From Pseudofrankia sp. DC12 (GTDB lineage: Bacteria; Actinomycetota; Actinomycetes; Frankiales; Frankiaceae): 64,000 nucleotides of DNA. Made by a program: the position numbers and the translations under genes. The stretch is from positions 1,446,378-1,510,377 of the forward strand of contig NZ_KQ031391.1 of NCBI RefSeq assembly GCF_000966285.1. The letters run 5' to 3'. The notes beneath the pieces were generated by a model, which did no database searches, was not told where the DNA came from, and saw only the letters and a list, made by a program, of their open reading frames with translations. Position 1 is the first letter of the stretch, and every line of letters starts with the position of its first letter. Positions 38,090-52,912 of this stretch are shown here, piece after piece.

Positions 38090-39004
38090 CTAGACGCTGG
38101 CCGACGTCGCTGGCCGACGGGCCTGCGCCAACAGGTGCGCGAGCAGGTCGCGGACCACGACGGAAACTCTGGCCTGGCGCCGGTGGAGCGCGACCATCGT
38201 GACCGTCGTCGGCTCGTCCGCGATCGGTCTGGCCGTGATGAGCCCCGCGCGCTCCAAGGGGTCGCCGATGACGCTGTAGTCAGGCAGGACCGTGAGGCCG
38301 ATCCCTTCGGCGACCATCATCTTGCCCATCTCCGCCCCGTCGGTGGAGTGCCACTCGGCCGGCAGCCGGGATCCGAAGAGCCTGTGCGCGAACCGATACA
38401 TGATGTAGCCGGCGCGCATCGCGACGAAGCGTTCGCCCCTCAGATCGTCGACGGTCACCTCGTCTGCCTGGGCGAGCGAATGCCCAGCTGGGATCACCGC
38501 GATCGGCCTGCCGCTGAGCAGGTGCGTGAACTCCAGCCCCGGCGGGACGTCGTCACCGTCGAGGAGGTTCACAAGACCCAGGTCGAGCACGCCGTCCGCA
38601 AGGCTGGTCTCGATCTCGTCCTGCCGCAGGCTCAGGATCTCCACCGTCGATCCCGGATGCTGCGACTGGAAGGCACGGACCGCCGGCAGCAACAGCGACG
38701 CGGTGCCCGCATTCACGGTCCCGATCCTGAGCAGGCGGCGGGTGGCGAGCTGGTCACCGGCCGCGGCCCTGAGCCGGTCGACCGACTCCAGCACGTCGAC
38801 GATCGGCGCCAGGAGCTCCCGCCCGGCGACGCTGATCCGGGAACCCGAACGGCGCCGGTCGAGCAAGGTGACGCCGAGCTCGCGCTCCAGTTTGCTGATC
38901 GCCTCACTGAGCGCGGGTTGCGAGACATGCAGCTGCTCGCTCGCGCGCCGCAGCGAGCCGAACCTGGTAACGGCGGCGATGTACTCGAGCTGCTCGATAC
39001 GCAC
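38090..39004 (-). CDS. LysR-family regulator of the sulfur operon
   Basis: A 304-residue LysR protein. The HTH is EQLEYIAAVTRFGSLRRASE, QLHVSQPALSEAISKLEREL, LGVTLLDRRRSGSRIS. The effector domain starts near residue 91 (LLRIGTVNAGTASLLLPAVR), with VLDLGLVNL and IAVIPAGHSL. The GTG start at 39004 lies 143 bases from the leader peptide of the divergent organosulfur operon, the usual arrangement for a LysR activator and its target. The effector is unknown. Confidence 0.85.
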   Translation of the reverse strand: MRIEQLEYIAAVTRFGSLRRASEQLHVSQPALSEAISKLERELGVTLLDRRRSGSRISVAGRELLAPIVDVLESVDRLRAAAGDQLATRRLLRIGTVNAGTASLLLPAVRAFQSQHPGSTVEILSLRQDEIETSLADGVLDLGLVNLLDGDDVPPGLEFTHLLSGRPIAVIPAGHSLAQADEVTVDDLRGERFVAMRAGYIMYRFAHRLFGSRLPAEWHSTDGAEMGKMMVAEGIGLTVLPDYSVIGDPLERAGLITARPIADEPTTVTMVALHRRQARVSVVVRDLLAHLLAQARRPATSASV

Positions 39005-39147
39005 GTGCTACTCCTGATCGGGGAAGCCGAGGGTGCGATAGCCAACTCCTGCCAGCGGACACCTGCCAACGCGGGGCGACTAAGTCTATCGTCTTGGTTG
39101 ACAACGCGTCGCGACAGCGCGCGCCGCAGTGCGGAGAGGAGATCGCC
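39005..39147 (+). promoter_or_regulatory. Divergent promoter region of LysR and sulfur operon
   Basis: The gap between the LysR start and the leader peptide contains a TTGACA hexamer at 39098-39103 directed toward the operon. No clear -10 follows at normal distance. LysR sites are expected here by position. Confidence 0.45.
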
Positions 39148-39219
39148 ATGGGCTTGACCGAGCTGGCCACCCGTCGGCACGTCGATCTTCTCCGTACTGC
39201 CAGCTGTCTGTGTCGGTGA
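39148..39219 (+). CDS. 23-aa sulfur-operon leader peptide
   Basis: A strong site (GGAGAGGAG, 39133-39141) precedes ATG at 39148, which opens MGLTELATRRHVDLLRTASC and then LCR-stop. The core RRHVDLLR-x-AS-C/L-C is the pattern of short actinobacterial leader peptides found ahead of sulfur-metabolism operons. Two Cys codons (TGT CTG TGT) come just before the end. Leader ORFs with Cys codons are known to sense cysteine supply through ribosome stalling. The 225 bases to the first structural gene include a small hairpin, CGCCA-CGTA-TGGCG (39280-39293), and leave room for an attenuator. The peptide call is strong and the mechanism is inferred. Confidence 0.8.
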   Translation: MGLTELATRRHVDLLRTASCLCR

Positions 39220-39444
39220 CCTGACCGGCGATTCCGGGACCTCGCCAAGATCCCCTCTGTTTCCGCTGCGCCATCCGTCCGCCACGTATGGCGCGCGACG
39301 AACGGCCAGGGTCACACCGCCCAGCTGACTGCTCGGCCCAGCCCACCTTCTCGGTCGCTCAGCGTCACCCCTGACGCCTGAGGCCTTGCGCCCGGCCGCC
39401 CGCCGAAGCCTCATGTCTCCGGCACCCTTCCCGTGGAGAGCTGC

Positions 39445-40824
39445 ATGTCACACGCGCCCCGTCCGCTGCACTTCGCGGCTTTTGTGATGAACACGACCGG
39501 CCACATCATCCAGGGCACCTGGCGTAGACCAACCGCCCGGCAGACCGACTTCAACAGCCTCGACCACTGGGTCGATCTGGCCAGGACCCTGGAACGCGGC
39601 ACGTTCGACGCGATCTTCTTCGCGGACGTGGTCGGCCTCTACGCCCCCTACCGCGGCGACGAGCGCAAGTACGTCGAGGCCGGGCTTCAGGTGCCCAGCA
39701 ACGATCCCTCCGTCCTGGCCAGCGCGATCGCCTATGCCACCGAGCACCTCGGCATCGCTTTCACCGCGTCGATCCTCCAGGAGCACCCGTTCAACTTCGC
39801 CCGCCGGATTTCCACGCTTGATCACGCGAGCAAGGGCCGTATCGCGTGGAACATCGTCACCAACTACCTTCCCAACGCCTCTCGCAACTTCGGGCTCGAG
39901 GGACTCACCAAGCACGACGAGCGGTACGCGTGGGCGGACGAGTACGTCGACGTCACCTACAAGCTCTGGGAGGGGTCCTGGGAGGACGACGCGCTCATCC
40001 AGGACCGCCAGACCGGCGTCCACGCCGACTTCAACAAGGTTCACAAGATCAACCACAGGGGCCCGCGCTACCAGGTCGAGGGCCCGCACCTGACCAGTCC
40101 GTCGCCGCAGCGGACGCCGCTGCTGTTCCAGGCCGGCGCCTCCGAGGCGGGCCGGACGTTCGCGGCGAAGAATGCCGAGGCCGTCTTCATCGCGTCGCCC
40201 AGCCTCGACGCCGCGGCCCGTGACACAGCCGATATCCGCGCCCGTGCGGTCACCTACGGACGGCGCGCGGACGACCTCAAGTTCTTCCAGGGGCTGTATG
40301 TCGTGCCGGCCGCCACCGAGGAGGAAGCCAGGCGCAAGGCCGCTGAGCTCGACGAATGGATCGACTACGACGCCCAGCTCGCGCACATGTCCGGGGCGGT
40401 CGGCATCGACTTCGGTTTCGAGGACCTGGACACCCCGGTCGGCGAGCTGAAGACCGAGGGCGTGCAGAGCATCGTCGGCTGGATCAAGGACCTGGTAACG
40501 GACCGGCAGCCGACACTGCGCGATGTCGCCCATTACACGGCGACTAACAGCCGCATCGTCGGAACTCCCGAGCAGATCGCCGGCCAGCTCGCGCTCTGGC
40601 AGGCGGCCGGTGTCGACGGCATCAACCTCGTCAACGCCGAGATTCCCGGCACGTACGAGGAGTTCGTCGACCACGTGATCCCCGTCCTGCGGGACCGCGG
40701 GCTCGCGCAGCGCGAATACGCGGACGGAACGCTGCGCCACAAGCTGTTCAGCCAGGGGAACCGGCTGCCCGAGCGCCATCCCGCCACTCGCTACCGCGGC
40801 GCGTTCGCGCCCCAGCCCGCCTGA
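39445..40824 (+). CDS. NtaA/DszA-type FMN-dependent monooxygenase 1
   Basis: A 459-residue bacterial-luciferase-fold flavin monooxygenase of the NtaA/SnaA/DszA group. Marks: an N-terminal HFAAFVMNTTGHIIQGTWRR, FDAIFFADVVGLYA, PSNDPSVLASAIAYATEHLG, ISTLDHASKGRIAWNIVTNY and YKLWEGSWEDDAL. These enzymes use FMNH2 from a partner reductase to oxidise organosulfur or aminocarboxylate compounds. No reductase is encoded in this operon. Start ATG at 39445 with a GGAGAG site; an upstream GTG at 39433 is less likely. First structural gene of the organosulfur operon, ten bases before the second monooxygenase. Confidence 0.85.
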   Translation: MSHAPRPLHFAAFVMNTTGHIIQGTWRRPTARQTDFNSLDHWVDLARTLERGTFDAIFFADVVGLYAPYRGDERKYVEAGLQVPSNDPSVLASAIAYATEHLGIAFTASILQEHPFNFARRISTLDHASKGRIAWNIVTNYLPNASRNFGLEGLTKHDERYAWADEYVDVTYKLWEGSWEDDALIQDRQTGVHADFNKVHKINHRGPRYQVEGPHLTSPSPQRTPLLFQAGASEAGRTFAAKNAEAVFIASPSLDAAARDTADIRARAVTYGRRADDLKFFQGLYVVPAATEEEARRKAAELDEWIDYDAQLAHMSGAVGIDFGFEDLDTPVGELKTEGVQSIVGWIKDLVTDRQPTLRDVAHYTATNSRIVGTPEQIAGQLALWQAAGVDGINLVNAEIPGTYEEFVDHVIPVLRDRGLAQREYADGTLRHKLFSQGNRLPERHPATRYRGAFAPQPA

Positions 40825-40833
40825 GCGCCGGCG

Positions 40834-42279
40834 ATGGCCGAGAAGAAGCGCCTCATTCTCAACCTCTTCGAGATGAACTGCGTCAGCCACATCACACACG
40901 GTCTGTGGCGGCTTCCGGACAACAACCGGGAACGGTTCAACGACATCGAGTATTGGACCGAGCTGGCGAAACTGCTGGAGTCCGGCGGCTTCGACGCCGT
41001 GTTCCTCGCCGACGTCATCGGCACCTACGACGTCTTCCGGGGCGGCGCGGGCACCTCCGTCCGCGAAGGCCTGCATATCCCGAACAACGATCCATCGCTC
41101 GTGGTCCCGGCCATGGCGGCCGTGACCAGGCACCTGGGCTTCGGCATCACGTTCTCGACGACGTACGAGCCGCCTTTCGCGTGGGCTCGCCGGCTGAGCA
41201 CCCTCGATCACCTCACCAAGGGCCGGGTCGGCTGGAACATCGTGACCTCATACCTCCCGAACGCGGCCCGCAACTTCGGGCTGGACGGGGAGATCGACCA
41301 CGACACCCGCTTCGAGATCGCCGACGAGTACCTCGACGTGCTCTACAAGCTGTGGGAGGGCTCCTGGGATGACGACGCGATCGTCTCGGACCGGGAGAAC
41401 GGCACCTTCGCGGATCCGGAGAAGATCCGGCCGATCGATCACGACGGGAAGTACTTCAAGGTCGAGGGCCCGCAGCTGCCCGCCCCAAGCCGGCAGCGGA
41501 CCCCGGTCCTGTTCACCGCGACCGCGTCGGCGGCGGGCACCGCGTTCGCCGGCAAGCACGCCGAGCTCGTCTTCACCGGCGGTCCGAGCGCGGACTTCGT
41601 CCGGACGACCATCGAGAACGTCCGCGCCGCCGCGGTCGCGGCGGGCCGCAAGGCGGACGACGTCCGTTTCGTCGCGATCGGTGCAGTGATCGTCGGACGG
41701 ACAGACGATGAGGCCCAGGCCAAGCTCGCCGCGTACGAGCGGCTCACCAGCGTCGAGGGGTATCTCGCGCACGCCAGCCTTCCGTTCGACCCGACGGCGT
41801 ACCCGCCGGAGACCAAGATCAAGGACGTCGCCGACGGCGACGGGGGCATCGGGCGCTGGCGGGCGTTCGACCCGGAGCAGAGCGTCGGGGAGCTGCTCGC
41901 CGGTTTCAGCGACATCGGCCGCGGGCCGTTCTTCACCGTCGGCACCCCCGAGAAGGTCGCGGACGCGATCGAGTCGTGGCTCGACGACGTCGGCATCGAC
42001 GGCATCAACCTGCTCCAGTACCACTCGTACGACACCGCCAGGGACTTCATCGAGCTCGTCGTACCCGTGCTGCGCGCCCGCGGCCGGCTGCGGGCCAGCT
42101 ACGACGAGGACGAGTCCCTGCGCGACCGGATCTTCGGCGACGGGGACCGGCTTCCCGACCGCCACTTCGGCGCCCGCTATCGCGGTGGCGCGCACCTTCC
42201 GATCACCGAGCGGCGCGCCGCGCCGACCGGGCCCACCATCCCAACCGACAACTCCACCGCAAGGAAGAGACAGCGATGA
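40834..42279 (+). CDS. NtaA/DszA-type FMN-dependent monooxygenase 2
   Basis: This 481-residue paralogue of the preceding enzyme shows the same blocks: LNLFEMNCVSHITHGLWRL, FDAVFLADVIGTYDVF, STLDHLTKGRVGWNIVTSYL and YKLWEGSWDDDAI. The two differ enough to act on different substrates or to form a pair. It has a longer basic C-terminal tail. Its stop overlaps the start of the lipoprotein gene as ATGA, showing coupling to the transporter genes. Confidence 0.85.
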   Translation: MAEKKRLILNLFEMNCVSHITHGLWRLPDNNRERFNDIEYWTELAKLLESGGFDAVFLADVIGTYDVFRGGAGTSVREGLHIPNNDPSLVVPAMAAVTRHLGFGITFSTTYEPPFAWARRLSTLDHLTKGRVGWNIVTSYLPNAARNFGLDGEIDHDTRFEIADEYLDVLYKLWEGSWDDDAIVSDRENGTFADPEKIRPIDHDGKYFKVEGPQLPAPSRQRTPVLFTATASAAGTAFAGKHAELVFTGGPSADFVRTTIENVRAAAVAAGRKADDVRFVAIGAVIVGRTDDEAQAKLAAYERLTSVEGYLAHASLPFDPTAYPPETKIKDVADGDGGIGRWRAFDPEQSVGELLAGFSDIGRGPFFTVGTPEKVADAIESWLDDVGIDGINLLQYHSYDTARDFIELVVPVLRARGRLRASYDEDESLRDRIFGDGDRLPDRHFGARYRGGAHLPITERRAAPTGPTIPTDNSTARKRQR

Positions 42280-43913
42280 ATCGAATCTGGCGAGCACGAC
42301 GCGCCGCGCTGCCAGCGGCCAGTGCCGCCCTGTTGGGCGCAGTGATCGCGGGCTGCGGCGGCAGCGCGGCCACGTCCGCGGGTGGGTCCCCCGTCAAGGG
42401 CGGAACGATCGTCTACGGTCACGAGCAGGAGCCGCCGTGCCTGGCCGGCGGGTGGGTCCAGCAGGCCTACCTCGACCGCAACATCCTCGACTCGATCGTC
42501 ACCGAGGCCGACGACGGCTCGATCAAGCCCTGGCTGGCGGACAGCTGGACGATCTCCGCGGACCGGCTGACCTACACCTTCACCCTCAAGCCCGGGGTCA
42601 AGTTCACCGACGGGACACCGCTGGACGCCCAGGCCATCGCCGACAACTTCGCCTACTGGGAGAAGGGTGGCAACAGCACCGCCCAGGTCTCCATCGACCC
42701 GTATTTCAAGTCGGCCACGGCGATCGACGCCACGCACCTCGCGGTGACGCTCAACAAGCCGTACCTGCCGCTCCTCACGATGCTGTCGCAGGCCTACTTC
42801 GGTATTCAGTCGCCGACCGCGCTCAAGCGCGGCGACGCCGTGAACTGCGATGACCCGATCGGCTCGGGCGCGTTCAAGGTCAAGGAATGGAAGCACGGCC
42901 AGGAGGTCATCCTCGTCAAGAACCCGAACTACACGTCCTGGCCGGCGACCGCGAAGCACAAGGGACCGGCCATCGTCGACGAGGTCGACTGGAAGTTCCT
43001 GCCGGACCCGGTGCAGCGCTACGCCGCCCTGACGACCGGCGAGGCCAACGTCATCTACGACGTTCCAACGGTGAACTGGAAGGCTGCCCAGGCGCAGTTC
43101 GGCGTGCAGCAGTACATCACGCCCGGCAAGCCCGTCTCGGTCTATCTCAACACCAGCAGAGGCGTGTTCACCGACAAGCTCGTGCGGCAGGCGTTCGCCT
43201 ACGGCGCCGACCGCAAGTCCGCGGTGCAGGCCGGGTTCCACGGCGTGATCCCGTACGAGGGCAACCCGTCGGTCAGCCAGGCGACTCCCGGGTACGACGC
43301 CGAAACGGCCACGCAGTACGCCTACGACCCGGCGAAGGCCGGGCAGCTGCTGGACCAGGCCGGCTGGACCCAGCGCAACGGCCAGGGCTACCGGACCAAG
43401 GACGGCAAGGAGCTCGACGTTACCTTCGCCTACCCGGCGGGCTCGGTGTTCACCAGCGAGGGCGCCACGGTGCTGCAGGACCTGCAGCAGGAGTGGAAGC
43501 AGGTCGGGTTCAACGTCAAGCTCGTCCCGGAAACCCAGGCCGAGACGTTCGCCGGCAAGTTCAGCAAGCCGGACAGCTACGACGCCCAGCCCTGGTACTG
43601 GACCAGCCCGAGCCCGGCGATCCTCTGGATCGTCTGGCGGCCCAGCACGGCCGACAACCCGAACTACAACAACTCCTCCTTCTACAACAACGACCAGCTG
43701 TCGACCGTGATCCAGCAGGGCAACAGCGCGCCCGACACCTCGACCGCCAACGGGTACTACGCCCAGGCCCAGGGGATCATCCAGGACAACGCGGCCGCGG
43801 TCGGCCTCTACACCCAGACCACCTCGATCGCGGCCGCGAAGAACCTGCGGGACGTCTGGCTCGAGAAGAGCCAGGGCGAGCCGGTCTTCGAGGACGCCTA
43901 CTTCACGAAGTGA
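42276..43913 (+). CDS. ABC transporter substrate-binding lipoprotein (family 5)
   Basis: A 545-residue extracytoplasmic solute-binding protein. Signal and lipobox: RRAALPAASAALLGAVIAGC with lipid Cys27, then GGSAATSAGG. The SBP_bac_5 fold is seen in WLADSWTISADRLTYTFTLK, VKFTDGTPLDAQAIADNFAY, DDPIGSGAFKVKEWK and VRQAFAYGADRK. Family 5 proteins normally bind oligopeptides or nickel chelates. In this operon the ligand is more likely an organosulfur compound, which is inference. Overlaps the upstream gene by four bases. Confidence 0.88.
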   Translation: MNRIWRARRAALPAASAALLGAVIAGCGGSAATSAGGSPVKGGTIVYGHEQEPPCLAGGWVQQAYLDRNILDSIVTEADDGSIKPWLADSWTISADRLTYTFTLKPGVKFTDGTPLDAQAIADNFAYWEKGGNSTAQVSIDPYFKSATAIDATHLAVTLNKPYLPLLTMLSQAYFGIQSPTALKRGDAVNCDDPIGSGAFKVKEWKHGQEVILVKNPNYTSWPATAKHKGPAIVDEVDWKFLPDPVQRYAALTTGEANVIYDVPTVNWKAAQAQFGVQQYITPGKPVSVYLNTSRGVFTDKLVRQAFAYGADRKSAVQAGFHGVIPYEGNPSVSQATPGYDAETATQYAYDPAKAGQLLDQAGWTQRNGQGYRTKDGKELDVTFAYPAGSVFTSEGATVLQDLQQEWKQVGFNVKLVPETQAETFAGKFSKPDSYDAQPWYWTSPSPAILWIVWRPSTADNPNYNNSSFYNNDQLSTVIQQGNSAPDTSTANGYYAQAQGIIQDNAAAVGLYTQTTSIAAAKNLRDVWLEKSQGEPVFEDAYFTK

Positions 43914-43920
43914 GGCCGTC

Positions 43921-44925
43921 GTGACCACTGTCGTGGAAGTCGCGACGGCAGCTCAGTCCCGGAGGCCGTCCGCGCGCTGGAACGCGCGGACGGCCCGCCG
44001 GGCCGCGGTCAAGGCCGTGACGGCGGTCGGAGTGCTGGTGGCGGCGGCCTCGGTCACCTTCTTCGCCCAACTGCTGGTGCCGGGCGACCGCGCCACCGCG
44101 ATCCTCAACCAGCGGAACGGGCGGGCCCAGCGCTGGACGCCGGCCGAACTCGCGCCGATCAACCACAAGCTGGGCTTCGACAAGCCCCTGATCGTCCAGT
44201 ATCTGCGCTACGTCGGCGGGCTGCTGCACGGTGATCTCGGAACGTCCTACACCCAGTACAGGCCGGTAACCCAGGTCATCAGCGCCGAGCTGATGCCCAG
44301 CGTGGTGCTGACCGCCGCCGCGCTGGTCGTGGCGTGGGCGCTCGCCCTCGGGGTCACGCTGCTCACCGTCAAGCGAGGCCGGTTCGTGACGGCGCTCGGC
44401 TCGACCTGGGAGGCCTTCACGGCGAGCCTGCCGCCGTACTGGGTCGGCGTCGTCCTGCTGGTCGTGTTCGCCGCGAAGCTGCGGATCTTCCCGGTGATCG
44501 GCGGGACGAGCGTGCGGGGAACCATCCTCCCGGTGGTGACGCTGGCCATCCCGCTGGCGGGCTTCCTCGGCCAGGTGACCCGCGACGAGTTCGAGAAGGT
44601 GCTCGACCAGCCGTTCATCACCACCGCCAGGACCCGCGGCATGACCGACGCGGGCGTGCGGCTCAAGCACGCGCTGCGGCACTCGGTCATCCCGGGCATC
44701 ACGCTGTCAGGGTGGGCGCTCGGCGCACTGCTGTCCGGCGCCGTGATCACGGAGAGCGTCTACGGCCGCCCCGGCATCGGCCAGGTCCTCGTCGCCGCCG
44801 TCAACAGCCGGGACGTGCCCGTCGTCTCCGGGGTCGTCCTCGTGGTCGCCGCCGTCTACATCCTGGCCAACCTGTTGGTGGACCTGGCCTACGGCCTGGT
44901 CGACCCGCGGCTGGTGGCGTCATGA
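43921..44925 (+). CDS. ABC transporter permease, DppB type
   Basis: A 334-residue inner-membrane permease with about six helices, for example TAVGVLVAAASVTFFAQLL-like at the start, VVLTAAALVVAWALALGVTL, and VVSGVVLVVAAVYILANLLV. It has the large loop after helix 1 typical of DppB/OppB (LNQRNGRAQRWTPAE, LGFDKPLIVQYLRYVGGLLH). The EAA loop is TTARTRGMTDAGVRLKHAL. GTG start at 43921, eight bases after the lipoprotein stop. Pairs with the next permease. Confidence 0.88.
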   Translation: MTTVVEVATAAQSRRPSARWNARTARRAAVKAVTAVGVLVAAASVTFFAQLLVPGDRATAILNQRNGRAQRWTPAELAPINHKLGFDKPLIVQYLRYVGGLLHGDLGTSYTQYRPVTQVISAELMPSVVLTAAALVVAWALALGVTLLTVKRGRFVTALGSTWEAFTASLPPYWVGVVLLVVFAAKLRIFPVIGGTSVRGTILPVVTLAIPLAGFLGQVTRDEFEKVLDQPFITTARTRGMTDAGVRLKHALRHSVIPGITLSGWALGALLSGAVITESVYGRPGIGQVLVAAVNSRDVPVVSGVVLVVAAVYILANLLVDLAYGLVDPRLVAS

Positions 44926-45785
44926 CGACCCTCACGGCACCTCCGGTGAGCGTCCTCGCCCGGCTGGGCAAGGTGAGGCTCGGTGCCCGCCCCGGCACCC
45001 TCGTGGCGTCGCTCATCCTGCTGTTCGCGCTGATCGCGGTCGTCGCGCCCGGGCTGCTCACCCACGGCAGCCCGACCGCCATCGACCTGCGTCACCCGCT
45101 GGGCGCGCCGTCCTGGCATCACCCGTTCGGCACCGACGACTCGGGGCGCGACCTCTACACCCGAGTCGTCTACGGCGCGCGCGAGTCGTTCGGGATCGGC
45201 CTGGGCGCGACGGGGCTGGCGATGGCGGCCGCCGTCCTGCTCGGCTTCGCCGCCGGGCTCGCCGGCGGTGCGGTCGACGTCGTCATCAGCCGGGTCCTGG
45301 AGGTCGCGTTCGCCTTCCCGGTCCTGCTGCTCGCGCTGCTGCTGATCTCGATCTTCGGGCCGTCGCTGACGACGGAACTCGTCGCGGTCGGGATCGGCTC
45401 GGCGCCCGGCTACGCCCGCATGGTGCGCGGCCAGGTCCGAAGCGTCCGCCAGGCCGGCTACGTCGAGGCCGCCGGCGCGCTGGGGCACAGCCGCTGGGCG
45501 GTCATCCGCCAGCACCTGTTCCCGAACGCCATGCGGCCACTCGTCGCCGTGCTCACCCTCGGGATCGGGCAGTCCATCGTCTGGGCGTCAGGGCTCGCCT
45601 TCCTCGGGCTGGGCGTCGCGCCGCCAAGCCCGGAGTGGGGCGCGTTGCTGGACGCCGGCCGCCTCTACATCACCACCTCGTGGTGGTTGGAAGTCCTGCC
45701 CGGTCTGGTGATCGTCCTTGTGACGCTCGCGGTGACCTCCCTGGGCCGGACGCTGCAGCGCCGACTGGAAGGGGCCGCGCGGTGA
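44922..45785 (+). CDS. ABC transporter permease, DppC type
   Basis: A 287-residue permease. It has the DppC hallmarks HPFGTDDSGRDLYTRVVYGA after helix 1 and the EAA loop YVEAAGALGHSRWAVIRQHL. Further helices are seen in FAFPVLLLALLLISIFG and WLEVLPGLVIVLVTLAVTSL. The ATG overlaps the previous stop (ATGA) and its own stop overlaps the ATPase start (GTGA), so the subunits are translated together. Confidence 0.88.
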   Translation: MTTLTAPPVSVLARLGKVRLGARPGTLVASLILLFALIAVVAPGLLTHGSPTAIDLRHPLGAPSWHHPFGTDDSGRDLYTRVVYGARESFGIGLGATGLAMAAAVLLGFAAGLAGGAVDVVISRVLEVAFAFPVLLLALLLISIFGPSLTTELVAVGIGSAPGYARMVRGQVRSVRQAGYVEAAGALGHSRWAVIRQHLFPNAMRPLVAVLTLGIGQSIVWASGLAFLGLGVAPPSPEWGALLDAGRLYITTSWWLEVLPGLVIVLVTLAVTSLGRTLQRRLEGAAR

Positions 45786-47557
45786 CGACGGTTACATCAG
45801 CCGAGCAGGTCGCCGTGGCTGCCGAACAGCGGCAAGCCCTCCTGACCGTGGACAACCTGCGGGTCTCCTTCGGTGACGCCGAGGTCGTCAAGGGCATCTC
45901 GTTCGTCGCCCGGCCGGGCCGCTGCCTGGCCATCGTCGGCGAGTCCGGGTCCGGCAAGAGCGTCACGGCCCGCACCCTGGTCGGTCTCCCCGGCCCGCAG
46001 GCCCGGGTGGCGGCCGACCGGATCGAGCTGGCGGGCACCGACCTGACCCGGCAGTCAGAACGCTCCTGGCGCGCGATCCGCGGCCGCGACATCGGGTTCG
46101 TGCTCCAGGACGCGCTCGTGTCGCTCGACCAGCTGCGTCGCGTCGGTCACGAGGTGGCCGAGCCGCTGCGGCTGCACGGCTGGGGCGACCGCCGCCGGCG
46201 GGCACGGCGAGCCGTCGAGCTGCTCGGCGCGGTGGGCGTCCCGGAGCCGGAGGTCCGGGCGCGGCAGCGGCCGTACGAGCTTTCCGGCGGCCTGCGGCAG
46301 CGCGCCCTGATCGCCTCGGCGATCGCGCTGGATCCGAAGCTCGTCATCGCGGACGAGCCGACCACGGCCCTCGACGTGACGGTGCAGGCACAGGTCCTCG
46401 ACCTGTTGGCCGCGTCGAAGGAACGTGGCACATCGATCATCCTGATCAGCCACGACCTGTCCGTCGTGGCCCGCCTGGCGGACGAGGTGGCCGTCATGCG
46501 CGCCGGCGAGATCGTCGAGCACGGGCCCGCGCACCAGGTCCTGCATGAACCGAAGCACGAGTACACGAAGGCTCTGCTGGACGCGATCCCGTCGGAGCAC
46601 ACCCGGGGGACCCGGCTGGTCCGGCCACCGGGCTCCCCACAGGCCGCGCGGACCGCCGGCCAGGCGGATCGCCAACCGAACGGGCCGCCGACCCAGCGGA
46701 CCGGATTCGCCGAGCCGGCCGGGACCCCGGCGCGGCCGGCCGTCGTGCCGCGAGCCCGCCAGCCGGTCGGCTCCGGCCGCCCGGTGCTGGCGGCGCGCGG
46801 ACTGACGAAGGTGTACCGGGGTCCCGACAGGATCGAGCGGACCGTGGTCGACGACGTGTCCTTCACGCTGTTGGGCGGCGAGACGCTCGGCATCGTCGGC
46901 GAGTCCGGGTCGGGCAAGACGACGACGGCCCGGATCGCGCTCGCGCTGCTCGCGCCGACCTCCGGCGAGGTCCTCCTGCACGGCGAGGCCTGGACGGCCG
47001 CGTCGGCCGCCGCGCGGCGTCCGCTGCGCAAGGACATCGGCGTGATCTACCAGGACCCGCTGAGCTCCTTCGACCCGCGCTGGCCGGTGGGACGCCTGCT
47101 CGTCGACGCGCTGCGCACCGGCAGGCGGCCACCGTCGTCCAAGGCCGAGGCCCGGGGCCGCGCCGTCCGCCTGCTCAACCAGGTGGGCCTGGGTGAGCAG
47201 CATCTCGGCGCGGCGCCACTGCGGCTGTCTGGCGGGCAGCGGCAGCGGGTCGCGATCGCCCGCGCGCTGGCTCCCGAGCCCAGCCTCCTCGTGTGCGACG
47301 AGCCGGTCTCGGCGCTCGACGTGTCCGTGCAGGCCCAGGTGCTGGACCTGCTCACCGACCTGCAGGACGAGCTCGGGGTCAGCTACCTGTTCATCTCCCA
47401 CGACCTGGGCGTGATCCACCACGTCTCGGACCGGATCCTGGTGATGAAGGGTGGCCGCGTCGTTGAGCAGGGACCGGCCGGTGACGTCTTCGACAACCCC
47501 CAGGACCCTTACACCCAGCGGCTGCTGACCGCGCTGCCCCGCCTGGCGCAGGCATGA
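45782..47557 (+). CDS. Fused double ABC ATPase (DppD-DppF type)
   Basis: A 591-residue protein with two nucleotide-binding domains in one chain. Domain 1: Walker A GESGSGKSVT (about residue 59), signature LSGGLRQRALIASAIA, Walker B LVIADEPTTALD. Domain 2: Walker A GESGSGKTTT (about residue 377), signature LSGGQRQRVAIARALA, Walker B LLVCDEPVSALD. A Pro/Ala/Arg-rich linker of about 75 residues joins them. In most Dpp/Opp systems these are separate proteins. GTG start overlapping the permease stop. It would power both permeases. Confidence 0.88.
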   Translation: MTTVTSAEQVAVAAEQRQALLTVDNLRVSFGDAEVVKGISFVARPGRCLAIVGESGSGKSVTARTLVGLPGPQARVAADRIELAGTDLTRQSERSWRAIRGRDIGFVLQDALVSLDQLRRVGHEVAEPLRLHGWGDRRRRARRAVELLGAVGVPEPEVRARQRPYELSGGLRQRALIASAIALDPKLVIADEPTTALDVTVQAQVLDLLAASKERGTSIILISHDLSVVARLADEVAVMRAGEIVEHGPAHQVLHEPKHEYTKALLDAIPSEHTRGTRLVRPPGSPQAARTAGQADRQPNGPPTQRTGFAEPAGTPARPAVVPRARQPVGSGRPVLAARGLTKVYRGPDRIERTVVDDVSFTLLGGETLGIVGESGSGKTTTARIALALLAPTSGEVLLHGEAWTAASAAARRPLRKDIGVIYQDPLSSFDPRWPVGRLLVDALRTGRRPPSSKAEARGRAVRLLNQVGLGEQHLGAAPLRLSGGQRQRVAIARALAPEPSLLVCDEPVSALDVSVQAQVLDLLTDLQDELGVSYLFISHDLGVIHHVSDRILVMKGGRVVEQGPAGDVFDNPQDPYTQRLLTALPRLAQA

Positions 47558-47736
47558 CCGGCGGCGTCGACGGCGCCGGCGGCTGGGACAGCTTCGGCCA
47601 GCGGCTCACGGGCAGCGGGACCACGGTCGTCGAGGGCGTGGAGATCCCGCGCCGGCGGCTCCCTCCTGCACGCCACCAGCCCCAGCGCCGCGTACCCGCG
47701 CGGACGGGAGCCCACCGGAAGAAGGGCACGCTATGA
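47554..47736 (+). pseudogene. Relic of an SfnB/acyl-CoA-dehydrogenase-like gene, 60 codons
   Basis: The ATG overlaps the ATPase stop and the TGA overlaps the next start, so the frame is coupled on both sides. Its text, GWDSFGQRLTGSGTTVVEGV then EIP, matches the middle domain of SfnB-type flavoproteins (compare DWDGLGQRTTASGSVVLSDA in the next gene) but nothing before or after that domain remains. It appears to be a deletion remnant of a second SfnB-like gene. It could still be translated as a short peptide. Confidence 0.6.
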
Positions 47737-48938
47737 GCCAGCTCGTGCAGACCCCGCCGGTACCGGTTCTCTCGGACCGGGCGGCGCTCGCCGTCGCGGA
47801 CGAGCTCGCGCGCGACTTCGCCGCCGGCGCGGTCCGTCGCGACGCCGAGCGGATTCTCCCGGTCGCGGAGCTCGACAGGCTCAGCGCCTCGGGACTGCTG
47901 GCGATCACGGTTCCAGCCGCGCACGGGGGCGCCGAGGTCTCGGTCCCCACCGTCGCGGAGGTGTTCCGGCTGCTGTCGGCGGCCGACCCGAACATCGGCC
48001 AGATCCCGCAGAGCCACTTCGTCTACGTCAACCAGCTTCGTCACCAGGGCAGGACCGACCAGCAGGCGCGGCTGTTCGCCGAGGTGCTCGCCGGCAGGCG
48101 GTTCGGCAACGCCCAGTCGGAGGCGGGGACCCGGCACGCCCGCGAGTTCCGGACGACGCTGCATCCCGGCGGGGACGGGCGGTGGCTGCTGCGTGGACGC
48201 AAGTTCTACGCGACCGGGGCGCTGCTGGCCGACTGGATCCCCGTCGTGGCCCACCTGGGTGTCGACGGCCCGCTGCACGTCGCGTGGGTGGCCCGGGAGG
48301 CGCCCGGTGTCGAGGTCATCGACGACTGGGACGGGCTCGGCCAGCGGACCACGGCGAGCGGCAGCGTCGTCCTGTCCGACGCGGCGGTGACCGACGACTG
48401 GATCACGCCCTACTCGGCGACCTTCGAGGGGCCGCAGACCTATGGCGCGTTCGCCCAGCTCCTGCACGCGGCGATCGACGCCGGCATCGCCCGGGCGGCC
48501 GTCACCGAGGCCGCCGTGTTCGTGCGCACCAAGAGCAGGCCGCACCCTGACGCGGGTGTCGAGCGGGCCGCCGACGACCCACTGGTCGTGCGGGCCTTCG
48601 GCGAGGTCGAGCTCGCCGTCCGCGCGGCCGAGGCGCTGCTGGAGGCCGCGGCCCGAAGCATCGAGGCCGCGGACGCGAACCTGACCGCGGGCACGGCCGC
48701 GGCGGCCAGCCTGGCGGTCGCGGCCGCCCGCGCCGCGACGGCCCGCGCCGCGCTGGAGGCGAGCAATCGCCTGTTCGAGGTCGCGGGCACCCGCTCGGCC
48801 GCCGCCGGCCTCGGGCTCGACCGGCACTGGCGCAACGCGCGCACCCATACCCTGCACGACGCCGCCGCGTGGAAGGTCCAGCATCTCGGCCGTTGGGCCA
48901 TCGACGGGACCACACCACCGAACCACGGGCAGCTGTGA
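47733..48938 (+). CDS. sfnB: SfnB-type sulfur-acquisition flavin oxidoreductase
   Basis: A 401-residue acyl-CoA-dehydrogenase-fold protein. The N-terminal helical domain has LSASGLLAITVPAAHGGAEV and LLSAADPNIGQIPQSHFVYV. The beta domain has GNAQSEAGTRHAREF and LRGRKFYATGALLADWIPVV. The C-terminal helical domain has EASNRLFEVAGTRSAAAGLG and RHWRNARTHTLHDAAAWK. The acyl-CoA catalytic Glu region is absent, as in SfnB and DszC-like enzymes that use reduced flavin for sulfone or sulfide oxidation. ATG start coupled to the upstream relic. Confidence 0.8.
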   Translation: MSQLVQTPPVPVLSDRAALAVADELARDFAAGAVRRDAERILPVAELDRLSASGLLAITVPAAHGGAEVSVPTVAEVFRLLSAADPNIGQIPQSHFVYVNQLRHQGRTDQQARLFAEVLAGRRFGNAQSEAGTRHAREFRTTLHPGGDGRWLLRGRKFYATGALLADWIPVVAHLGVDGPLHVAWVAREAPGVEVIDDWDGLGQRTTASGSVVLSDAAVTDDWITPYSATFEGPQTYGAFAQLLHAAIDAGIARAAVTEAAVFVRTKSRPHPDAGVERAADDPLVVRAFGEVELAVRAAEALLEAAARSIEAADANLTAGTAAAASLAVAAARAATARAALEASNRLFEVAGTRSAAAGLGLDRHWRNARTHTLHDAAAWKVQHLGRWAIDGTTPPNHGQL

Positions 48939-48972
48939 CGGACAACGACGTCTCTCGGAACGAAGGTCGACG

Positions 48973-50118
48973 ATGAGCGAGCTGAACTTCCACTGGTTCC
49001 TTCCCACCAACGGCGGGGACGGCCGACACATCGTCGGTGGCGGGCACGGCACGGTCGTGGAGAGCGCCGGAGGGCGGCCAGCCTCGGTGCCCTACCTCGG
49101 CCAGGTCGCGCGCGCCGCCGAGCAGCTCGGCTTCGACGCGGCTCTCACCCCGGCCGGCGCCTGGTGCGAGGACGCCTGGATCACGACCGCGATGCTCAGC
49201 CAGGTCTCGGAGCGGCTGAAGTTCCTGGTGGCGTTCCGGCCTGGGCTGCTGGCACCGTTCCTGGCGGCGCAGATGGCGGGCTCGTTCCAGAACCTCTCCG
49301 GCGGGCGGCTGCTGCTCAACGTTGTCACCGGTGGCGAGAGCCATGAGCAGCGGATGTATGGCGACTTCCTCGACAAGGACGCCCGCTACGACCGGTGCGC
49401 CGAGTTCCTGGAGATCGTTCGCGGGCTGTGGACCGGGCTCCCGGTCAGCTACGCCGGCAAGCACTATGAGGTCGAGAACGCCTCGCTCACCCAGCTCCCC
49501 CACCCCGTGCCGCGGATCTACTTCGGTGGTTCCTCCCCGGCCGCGCTGCGGGTCGCCGCGCGCCACGTCGACGTGTACCTGACCTGGGGCGAACCGCCCG
49601 CGGCGGTGGCCGAGAAGGTCAGCCGGCTGCGCGAGCTGGCGGCGAGGGAAGGCCGTGACCTGACCTTTGGCATCCGGCTGCACAGCATCGCGCGCGACAC
49701 CGCCGAGGCGGCGTGGGCGGAAGCCGGCCGGCTGCTGGCCGGGACATCCGACGACCAGATCAGGCGGGTCCAGGACGGTCTTCGCAAAAGCGAGTCGGAG
49801 GGGCAGAAGCGCATGCTCGCCCTCAACGGCGGGACCAGGGACGACCTGGAGATCTATCCGAACCTGTGGGCCGGCGTCGGCCTGGTCCGTGGTGGCGCCG
49901 GAACAGCGCTCGTCGGCAGCTTCGAACAGGTCGCCGACCTGATCGAGCGGTACGCGGCTGCCGGGATCTCCGAGTTCGTGATGTCGGGCTACCCCCATCT
50001 CGAGGAGGCGTACTGGTTCGGGGAGGGTGTCCTGCCCGAGCTCAGCCGGCGCGGCCTGTGGCAGCACCCGGCGCCCGCCGGACCGACGGCCGCCGCCGTA
50101 CCGTTCGGAGCGTCCTGA
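48973..50118 (+). CDS. ssuD: SsuD-type alkanesulfonate monooxygenase
   Basis: A 381-residue luciferase-fold enzyme that uses FMNH2 and O2 to release sulfite from sulfonates. Family blocks: FHWFLPTNGGDGRHI, FDAALTPAGAWCEDAWITTA, LVAFRPGLLAPFLAAQMAGS, GGRLLLNVVTGGESHEQRMY, HEYEV-like KHYEVENASL, and IYFGGSSPAALRVAA. The C-terminus has FVMSGYPHLEEAYWFGEGVL. Length is normal. ATG at 48973 behind an AAGG-type site. Last main gene of the operon; its product would deliver sulfur for cysteine synthesis. Confidence 0.88.
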   Translation: MSELNFHWFLPTNGGDGRHIVGGGHGTVVESAGGRPASVPYLGQVARAAEQLGFDAALTPAGAWCEDAWITTAMLSQVSERLKFLVAFRPGLLAPFLAAQMAGSFQNLSGGRLLLNVVTGGESHEQRMYGDFLDKDARYDRCAEFLEIVRGLWTGLPVSYAGKHYEVENASLTQLPHPVPRIYFGGSSPAALRVAARHVDVYLTWGEPPAAVAEKVSRLRELAAREGRDLTFGIRLHSIARDTAEAAWAEAGRLLAGTSDDQIRRVQDGLRKSESEGQKRMLALNGGTRDDLEIYPNLWAGVGLVRGGAGTALVGSFEQVADLIERYAAAGISEFVMSGYPHLEEAYWFGEGVLPELSRRGLWQHPAPAGPTAAAVPFGAS

Positions 50119-50813: not shown

Positions 50814-52912
50814 CAATGCCAGTGAGCGGAGCTTGATCGCGTTTGCGGAGTGGTCTGGCTGGGTCTTGACCGGCGGTCACGGTGGGTGACGGTCGAGGGG
50901 TGGGGTGGCCGCGGGTGGCCGGGTGGTGTGACACGCCCGGCTGAACGGGGAACGTCCGGGTTGCGGCGATGTGGGCGGATCTCCGGGTAGAGATCGGGTG
51001 TCGAATCCATTTTCCCTGGCCCGGAGTCCGCTGTGTCTTTCTACTCTGTCGTGCCGTCGGTCGTGCTGCCTGGGGTGGCTGGCGGGCTTGCCGGTGCGGG
51101 GCTGGTCGCGTTGCGTGCCGGGGACGTGGCGGTGGGGCGGGCGCGGACGGCGGGGCGGCGCGGGGGTGGGCAGGCGCCGGTGGCGGAGCGGCGGTCGTTG
51201 CTGACGCTGGCGGACGGGGCGCGGCCGGTCGGGCAGGGCGATGACATCGTCATCTACCGGCCTGTGCTGCGCGGTGTCGCGAGGACGTATGACGACGGCC
51301 AGATCCGGGTGGTCGGCCGGGCGGCGGACTTCGTGCGTCTCGGGCTGCTGGAGGCCGAGATCGACCGGCTGCTCGGTCCTGACGCGATCAACAGGCTGGT
51401 CGGTGAGCTCGCCGCGGGGAACGACGCCCCGGCGGCCGGCCCGGCCCTGGCCGCCGACGAGGTGGCCGGTGGGCAGGAGGGGGATACGGCGCGGGTGTTG
51501 ACCCGGCCGGTGCTCGCGCGGGCGCTGATTCTGGGGATGGTCATGGCGGACACGTCGTGGGATGACGTGCTGGCGGCCCTGTTCGGTGAGCTGGCGGAGG
51601 TGCCGTTCACCGCGTGTGGTGCGGTCCCGGCGGGGTCGGGGTTCTCGAGGGCGCGGCGCGCCCTGCCCGGCGCGGTGCTCGACGAGCTGTGTGCCCGGCT
51701 GCTCGCCGCGGTGCGTGGCGAGTTGTCCGGCACCGACGGCGCGCAGGCGCTGACGGCGGGGAGCTTCCGCCTCGCCGGGTTCGACGGGACACTGGTCCGG
51801 CTGCCCGACACCGCGGACAACCGGGCGTTGTTCGGGGCGGGCACCGACCCGGCGCCGTACCCGCATGTGCGGCTCCTGCTCGACAACGATGCCGGGACGA
51901 AGGCGCCGCTCGCCTACGCCTACGGCCCGTCGAGCGGGGCGAAGGACGTCGGCGAGCAGGCCCTGCTCGAGCAGGTCGCCGAGGCGCCCGGGCTGCGCCG
52001 GCCTGACCTGCTGCATATCGGTGATCGCAACTTTCCCGGCGCCGACCGGCTGGAGCGCCTCGCCGCGGACGGGATGAAGCTGCTCGTGCGGCTGCCCGGC
52101 GGGATCACCGTGCGCCGGGTCGGGGACTGGCTGCCCGACGGGTCGTTCCTCGCTGACCTCGGTGCCGAGAAGGTCCTGGCCGGCTGGCGGGTCGTGGAGT
52201 ACGACGTGTTCGCGGGCGGGGTCCACACCGGTGAGACGTTCGCGGTGGCCACCAACGTCACCGACCCCGCCGCGCTGTCCGCCGCGCAGGCCGCCGACGC
52301 CTACCACGCCCGCTGGGGCGCCACGGAGACCCCGCTGCGCGAGCAGAAAGCGGCCCTCCACCGCTCCGGGCCGGGCAGCGGCCCGATGCTGCGCGCGACC
52401 GACCCGTTCGAGGCCGCCCAGGAGATCCCCGCCTGGATCCTCGCCACCAGCCTCATCCGGGCCCTACAGCGCACCGTCGCCGCCCAGGCCACCCCCGCGG
52501 CCCGTGGCGCCCACGCCGGCCAGCCCGTCCTCGTGCGCGCGCTGTCCTACAAGGCGGCCCGGCACGCGGCCCTCCGCCACCTCGGCTGCGCGACCGCGGG
52601 CCTCCCCGACGAGATCATCCAGACCCGGCAGCGGCAGGCCCTCCACACCCTCGGTCGCCGCCGCCACACCCTCGGCCGCGGCCGCACCCGCGACCGCGCC
52701 GCCAAGAGCGCCTCCGACTTCCCGACCGCCCGCCCCGGCATCACCACCCGCAAGGTCACCTACACGGTCCGGATCTGCGGGCCGATCCGCAACCAGACGC
52801 CCGCCACGCTCTCACTGATCACCAACGGTGATCACATCACCGACAGCGACCACATGCCGGAACAAGCCAAGGCCGCCTGACAGACGCGATCAAGCACCAG
52901 TCACTGGCATTG
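50814..52912 (+). mobile_element. IS4-type element, copy 3 (2099 bp)
   Basis: Same inverted ends and length as copy 1, with only a few base differences (for example one in the leader and GCC to CCG near codon 8). A perfect 10 bp target duplication shows a simple, fairly recent insertion into the FAD-linked oxidase gene. Confidence 0.92.
51033..52880 (+). CDS. IS4-type DDE transposase, 615 aa (copy 3)
   Basis: Full-length frame with all catalytic blocks: FDGTLVRLPDT, LLHIGDRNFPGADRL and YHARWGATETPLREQK. It differs from copy 1 by Ala to Pro in SVVPSVVLPG near the N-terminus. It is therefore one of two apparently functional transposase genes in the window and a possible source of transposase for the frameshifted copy 2. 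Confidence 0.88.
   Translation: MSFYSVVPSVVLPGVAGGLAGAGLVALRAGDVAVGRARTAGRRGGGQAPVAERRSLLTLADGARPVGQGDDIVIYRPVLRGVARTYDDGQIRVVGRAADFVRLGLLEAEIDRLLGPDAINRLVGELAAGNDAPAAGPALAADEVAGGQEGDTARVLTRPVLARALILGMVMADTSWDDVLAALFGELAEVPFTACGAVPAGSGFSRARRALPGAVLDELCARLLAAVRGELSGTDGAQALTAGSFRLAGFDGTLVRLPDTADNRALFGAGTDPAPYPHVRLLLDNDAGTKAPLAYAYGPSSGAKDVGEQALLEQVAEAPGLRRPDLLHIGDRNFPGADRLERLAADGMKLLVRLPGGITVRRVGDWLPDGSFLADLGAEKVLAGWRVVEYDVFAGGVHTGETFAVATNVTDPAALSAAQAADAYHARWGATETPLREQKAALHRSGPGSGPMLRATDPFEAAQEIPAWILATSLIRALQRTVAAQATPAARGAHAGQPVLVRALSYKAARHAALRHLGCATAGLPDEIIQTRQRQALHTLGRRRHTLGRGRTRDRAAKSASDFPTARPGITTRKVTYTVRICGPIRNQTPATLSLITNGDHITDSDHMPEQAKAA

Follow-up and report, generated by a model that had tools for sequence, protein, structure and literature searches.

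A cysteine-codon leader peptide before a putative organosulfur operon of Pseudofrankia, and a near-invariant UGU codon in its family

The short ORF that precedes a monooxygenase and importer operon in Pseudofrankia sp. DC12 is, as judged by sequence comparison, a further member of a known and widespread family of cysteine-sensing leader peptides, and this assignment is well supported. The specialist interest of the find is a near-invariant UGU at one fixed position of the family, which suggests that ribosomes may read cysteine supply at this single codon. The leader lies in a 64,000-nucleotide stretch of contig NZ_KQ031391.1 (the window, meaning the whole of the DNA analysed) from a genome of 6.88 Mb.

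A sequence-only reading of the window had described a 23-codon ORF with a very strong ribosome binding site, 225 bases before the operon and downstream of the divergent promoter region of a LysR gene. All of these elements are in place (Table 1); the 225 nt separate the leader stop from the start codon (ATG) of the first operon gene. The reading had also recognised the pattern of actinobacterial sulfur leader peptides, and the profile search agrees: the peptide scores 35.9 bits against NCBIfam NF042934 (cis_reg_atten, 'putative leader peptide', Actinobacteria), above the curated cut-off of 27 bits, and 33.4 bits in a genome-wide search with the same model. It carries the motif H[VI]DLxRxxSxxC with its fixed spacing, as HVDLLRTASCLC, and is a short ORF on the same strand upstream of sulfur genes, which is a feature of the NF042934 family. 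Scores against the Ms5788A and Ms4527A equivalogs (23.1 and 22.5 bits) fall below their 45-bit cut-off. A Pfam search of the peptide gave no match, and an Rfam search of 38900-39700 returned no RNA family (one chance miRNA match lay below threshold).

Table 1 Features of the leader region and operon in the window
Feature	Position	Strand	Basis or remark
LysR-family regulator, divergent	38090..39004	-	Pfam HTH_1 and LysR_substrate
Conserved box ACTAAGTCTATCGT	39079..39093	+	Probable promoter or LysR-operator element; kept at orthologous loci
Leader Shine-Dalgarno GGAGAGGAG	39133..39141	+	Strong; read from sequence
Leader peptide ORF	39148..39219	+	NF042934; 23 codons, ATG 39148, TGA 39217-39219, MGLTELATRRHVDLLRTASCLCR then stop
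Conserved peptide motif HVDLLRTAS, codons H11-S19	39178..39204	+	Comparison of leaders
Cys20 codon TGT	39205..39207	+	Orthologue comparison
Cys22 codon TGT (Cys12 of motif)	39211..39213	+	Invariant, probably regulatory
C-rich, G-poor untranslated spacer	39220..39434	+	Candidate Rho-loading region; C 0.44, G 0.27
Shine-Dalgarno GGAGAG of first operon gene	39435..39440	+	Not predicted sequestered
NtaA/DmoA-family FMN-dependent monooxygenase 1	39445..40824	+	TIGR03860, 513.8 bits
NtaA/DmoA-family FMN-dependent monooxygenase 2	40834..42279	+	TIGR03860, 467.9 bits
Substrate-binding protein (family 5)	42276..43913	+	SBP_bac_5
ABC permease, first	43921..44925	+	Profile matches
ABC permease, second	44922..45785	+	Profile matches
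Fused double ABC ATPase	45779..47557	+	Profile matches; exact start uncertain
SfnB-family sulfur acquisition oxidoreductase	47733..48938	+	TIGR04022, 510.3 bits (cut-off 430.9)
SsuD-like FMNH2-dependent alkanesulfonate monooxygenase	48973..50118	+	TIGR03565, 432.1 bits, below equivalog cut-off 518.2

The orthologous LysR/monooxygenase arrangement was located in other actinobacteria, and the leader is present at six such loci including its own; the others belong to Frankia relatives (L034, L038), Marmoricola (L035, L037) and Nocardioides (L036), and an AGGAG-like site precedes all five. Across a 14-codon core, third positions vary in 12 of the 14 codons, first positions in only 2 and second positions in only 4 (p = 1e-4), although these counts stem from related lineages and represent fewer evolutionary events than sequences. 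Since variation falls mostly at third codon positions, the peptide is under selection. This synonymous pattern, the NF042934 score and the five orthologous loci elsewhere argue that the ORF is not a chance one. The Marmoricola leaders have diverged within the motif (HVDLLL in L035, HVDVLR in L037) and score 20.7 and 20.3 bits, below the cut-off. No leader was found at the orthologous loci of Dactylosporangium (L075) and Paractinoplanes (L039) or at a Gordonia locus (L084). The upstream box ACTAAGTCTATCGT is kept where the leader is present and also in leaderless Dactylosporangium, and is degenerate in Paractinoplanes; its retention with and without the leader fits a constant LysR layer to which the leader has been added or from which it has been lost. 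The double control by LysR and leader that had been put forward earlier is thus compatible with two layers, as far as sequence comparison can indicate, the box near the LysR gene being kept in a leaderless orthologous operon.

The sequence-only reading had called the operon an organosulfur one, and profile searches point the same way: the SfnB-family protein scores above its cut-off, an SsuD-like protein accompanies it, and among the structurally characterised relatives of both NtaA/DmoA-family monooxygenases are dimethyl-sulfide monooxygenase, an alkane monooxygenase and DszA. From this gene company we infer that the operon substrate carries sulfur. Among named organisms, the closest relatives in a search with the monooxygenase include Frankia. 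The genes in 39445-47557 are separated by gaps of at most 9 nt. A 175-nt gap precedes the SfnB/SsuD-like pair (47733-50118), which reads in the same direction and may belong to the same operon or have its own promoter. Downstream of the operon, a long ORF (51033-52880, plus strand) has a transposase-like reading.

Both Cys codons that the sequence-only reading placed before the stop are present and both are TGT, but they are not equivalent. With the His of H[V/I]DLxRxxSxxC numbered 1, Cys22 of the window leader is Cys12 of the motif; it is invariantly TGT in the family and is separated from the stop by a single Arg codon. Cys20 occurs in five of the six orthologues, as TGT or TGC, and is not general in the family. 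Among 53 distinct leaders gathered without any spacing requirement, and from related genomes that do not count as independent events, Cys12 is found in all 53 and is encoded by TGT in every one. The other Cys codons of these leaders are TGC in 14 cases and TGT in 6, and the motif His and Asp codons end in C in 40/53 and 38/53. These genomes are GC-rich and elsewhere favour TGC: ordinary genes at 20 actinobacterial loci use it 275 times against 46 for TGT (about 6:1), and the 18 window genes hold 58 TGC and 17 TGT. When at most one locus per genome is allowed, Cys12 is TGT in 29/29 leaders, and in this set the only other conserved bases near its codon are those of the Ala codon two positions upstream. 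When 296 genomes of the class were scanned by pattern, 188 had the motif ending in TGY and 2 had it ending in TGC; the two TGC matches resemble real leaders. Drift is an unlikely cause of the TGT, since it is spread over many genera.

The mycobacterial leaders conform to this picture. Relatives of Ms4527A and Ms5788A have TGT at the aligned position in 8/8 and 6/6 genomes (the Ms5788A core, AVDLCR, was aligned by hand in this analysis), and the Cys codons beside it in the runs are variable. Only one tRNA-Cys gene, with anticodon GCA, was found in the set of tRNA genes read, and UGU would therefore be wobble-read. A tentative generalisation, which we think somewhat more apt to fail than to hold, is that actinobacterial sulfur leaders read cysteine supply at a single codon and are codon-specific arrest peptides, not ordinary poly-codon attenuators; one wobble-decoded UGU would sit at a fixed distance behind the conserved HVDLxRxxS, the mycobacterial poly-Cys form being an elaboration of this single-codon core. 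A near-invariant synonymous codon across many genera raises the question of whether attenuation depends on codon decoding and not just on the amino acid. A change from UGU to UGC would leave the peptide unaltered, which makes for a sharp and cheap prediction requiring one silent mutation. The literature searched held no mention of the invariance of the Cys12 UGU; priority is uncertain, the main mycobacterial leader study (Canestrari 2020) lying outside that search.

The window leader has sisters. An NF042934 search of the same genome gave four matches above the cut-off and one just below it (26.6 bits). The three to four further leaders are followed by genes for a nitrite/sulfite reductase, for a sulfurtransferase of the rhodanese type, for CysO and CysM, and for a winged-helix protein paired with a flavin reductase; the sulfurtransferase and flavin reductase were named by eye only. 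The proteins downstream of L003 and L005 belong to a profile-scanned set in which NIR_SIR and PALP are among the families tallied. The winged-helix and flavin-reductase pair stands behind the sub-threshold match (L006, C1:3536915-3536965), and its flavin-reductase-like gene is a possible supplier of FMNH2 to the monooxygenases. Leaders of the NF042934 kind occur in 53 of 58 genomes searched, the present one included, and in none of 14 control genomes. The genes downstream of leaders in relatives (n = 38) include 11 SBP_bac_5 proteins, 10 sulfite/nitrite reductases (NIR_SIR), 3 PALP proteins, 3 luciferase-like monooxygenases and 2 PAPS reductases. Two leaders precede genes with no obvious sulfur role: L163 stands before an apparent 2-oxoacid:ferredoxin oxidoreductase and L181 before an apparent short-chain dehydrogenase.

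We propose that the leader senses cysteine and gates a sulfur-scavenging operon, a ribosome pause at the Cys22 UGU raising expression; we consider this quite probable, the pausing and its direction being drawn by analogy from mycobacterial precedent. Once the operon is transcribed, a ribosome would start on the leader. When Cys-tRNA is scarce the ribosome would pause with the Cys22 UGU in the A site, probably aided by the nascent HVDLLRTAS in the exit tunnel, and expression of the downstream operon would rise. With ample cysteine the ribosome would reach the stop and leave, and expression would drop. LysR would thus set transcription initiation, and the leader would gate its outcome by cysteine supply. 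Mycobacterial Cys short ORFs are reported to respond to cysteine (Canestrari 2020, cited in PMC9031893). Cysteine-dependent control by such ORFs is documented for M. smegmatis, as cited in PMC9031893 and PMC13236596, and by analogy we infer that cysteine controls the present operon. The leader would then place the monooxygenase/importer operon in the cysteine-limitation response and mark it as a sulfur-scavenging system. Against this explanation stand the orthologous operons of Dactylosporangium and Paractinoplanes, which manage without a leader.

Strict nascent-chain arrest would differ in the signal. HVDLxRxxS in the tunnel would itself halt the ribosome at UGU; the ribosome or the chain would sense cysteine or a related metabolite, and plain tRNA shortage would not be the signal. 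In favour of an arrest peptide, the distance between motif and Cys is fixed in all 53 leaders while that from Cys12 onward to the stop ranges between 1 and 12 codons, and most members (36/53) make do with one Cys codon; the poly-Cys forms of mycobacterial-type genomes, however, suggest that tRNA shortage is what is sensed, and we regard strict arrest as unlikely, if still a serious contender. A leader that is translated to no regulatory end, aiding ribosome loading only or acting through its peptide in trans, seems very improbable: reinitiation at leaders has been described (PMC4833913), but nothing specific speaks for such a role here. A gap of 225 nt exceeds what coupling could bridge, and both the invariant Cys codon and the link of these leaders to sulfur genes tell against it.

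How a pause is converted into expression was considered at the level of the spacer, whose sequence and length (77-263 nt) are not conserved across orthologues and in which no conserved secondary structure was found. Classical transcription attenuation would place an intrinsic terminator and antiterminator there, and several hairpins can indeed be drawn in 39220-39444. The search of that interval suggested by the sequence-only reading nonetheless yielded neither element; no stem followed by a T-run is present in the spacer of the window locus, and with the lack of spacer conservation this leaves the classical mechanism scarcely credible. Hairpins near the spacer end and directly behind the leader stop were seen by eye only and are not consistently conserved. 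A further hairpin, pairing the leader Shine-Dalgarno with the DLLRTA codons (39126-39140/39186-39200), is striking by eye and unexceptional against synonymous recoding: 32/500 recodings match its strength at the window locus and 183-388/500 at other loci, and at five of six loci it is no stronger than recoding gives.

In translational attenuation, the mRNA would fold in the unpaused state to mask the Shine-Dalgarno of the first gene, and a stall at Cys22 would break the fold and free it. Mycobacterial leaders have been proposed to act in this way (PMC13236596, PMC9031893). Accessibility was assessed by partition-function folding with 50 spacer shuffles per locus and a modelled stall. The Marmoricola loci lend the idea some substance, the stall freeing the site in L035 to a greater extent than in any of the 50 shuffles and L037 having a Shine-Dalgarno more paired than in 49/50. 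At the window locus, by contrast, the region from Shine-Dalgarno to AUG is less paired than in 48/50 shuffles (50/50 at the nearest orthologue), and a ribosome modelled at the first Cys codon fails to free it. There is no clear release at five of six loci, the 225-nt spacer is long, and masking is on this evidence rather doubtful. For the window locus, Rho-dependent termination within the C-rich spacer is the better fit, though the indication is suggestive only. Rho had been put forward earlier for cys leaders of actinobacteria (Seliverstov 2005, PMC1262725). The C-G skew of the spacer stands at the 96th percentile within the window; over the 75 nt behind the stops of the 53 leaders the skew is 0.171, compared with 0.001 in random windows and 0.040 in regions upstream of other genes (p = 6e-8 against these upstream regions), base composition being a weak proxy for Rho sites. 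In 94% of the 53 leaders this 75-nt stretch is rich in C and poor in G. A difficulty for Rho is that a paused ribosome would cover just the first few bases of the spacer, and how it would shield the rest is not obvious.

Several known systems resemble the present leader in part. The uORFC-8-2 motif before cysS in Rhodobacterales (PMC8632094) is likewise a short ORF upstream of a gene, with conserved Cys codons; it differs in its tandem Cys codons, predominant UGC and intrinsic terminator, and no sign of a related peptide was seen in that system. The candidate Cys leaders described for cys operons of Mycobacterium, Propionibacterium and Bifidobacterium (Seliverstov 2005, PMC1262725) have Cys codons near the stop, no terminator was found for them and Rho was suggested, all as here. 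They carry Cys runs and precede biosynthetic operons, whereas the present leader stands before putative genes for organosulfur scavenging. The mycobacterial Ms5788A and Ms4527A (Shell 2015, PMC4633059) have an RR-H/A-V-D-x-x-R core that aligns with that of the window leader, and have the Cys12 TGT in common with it. Their Cys codons form contiguous runs where the window leader reads C-L-C. They are leaderless; the strong Shine-Dalgarno at 39133-39141 and a probable 5' UTR speak against a leaderless start here. With the NF042934 family as a whole the leader shares a score above the cut-off and a place before sulfur genes; this member carries C-L-C and stands ahead of an NtaA/DmoA-SfnB-SsuD type operon with an oligopeptide/nickel-type importer.
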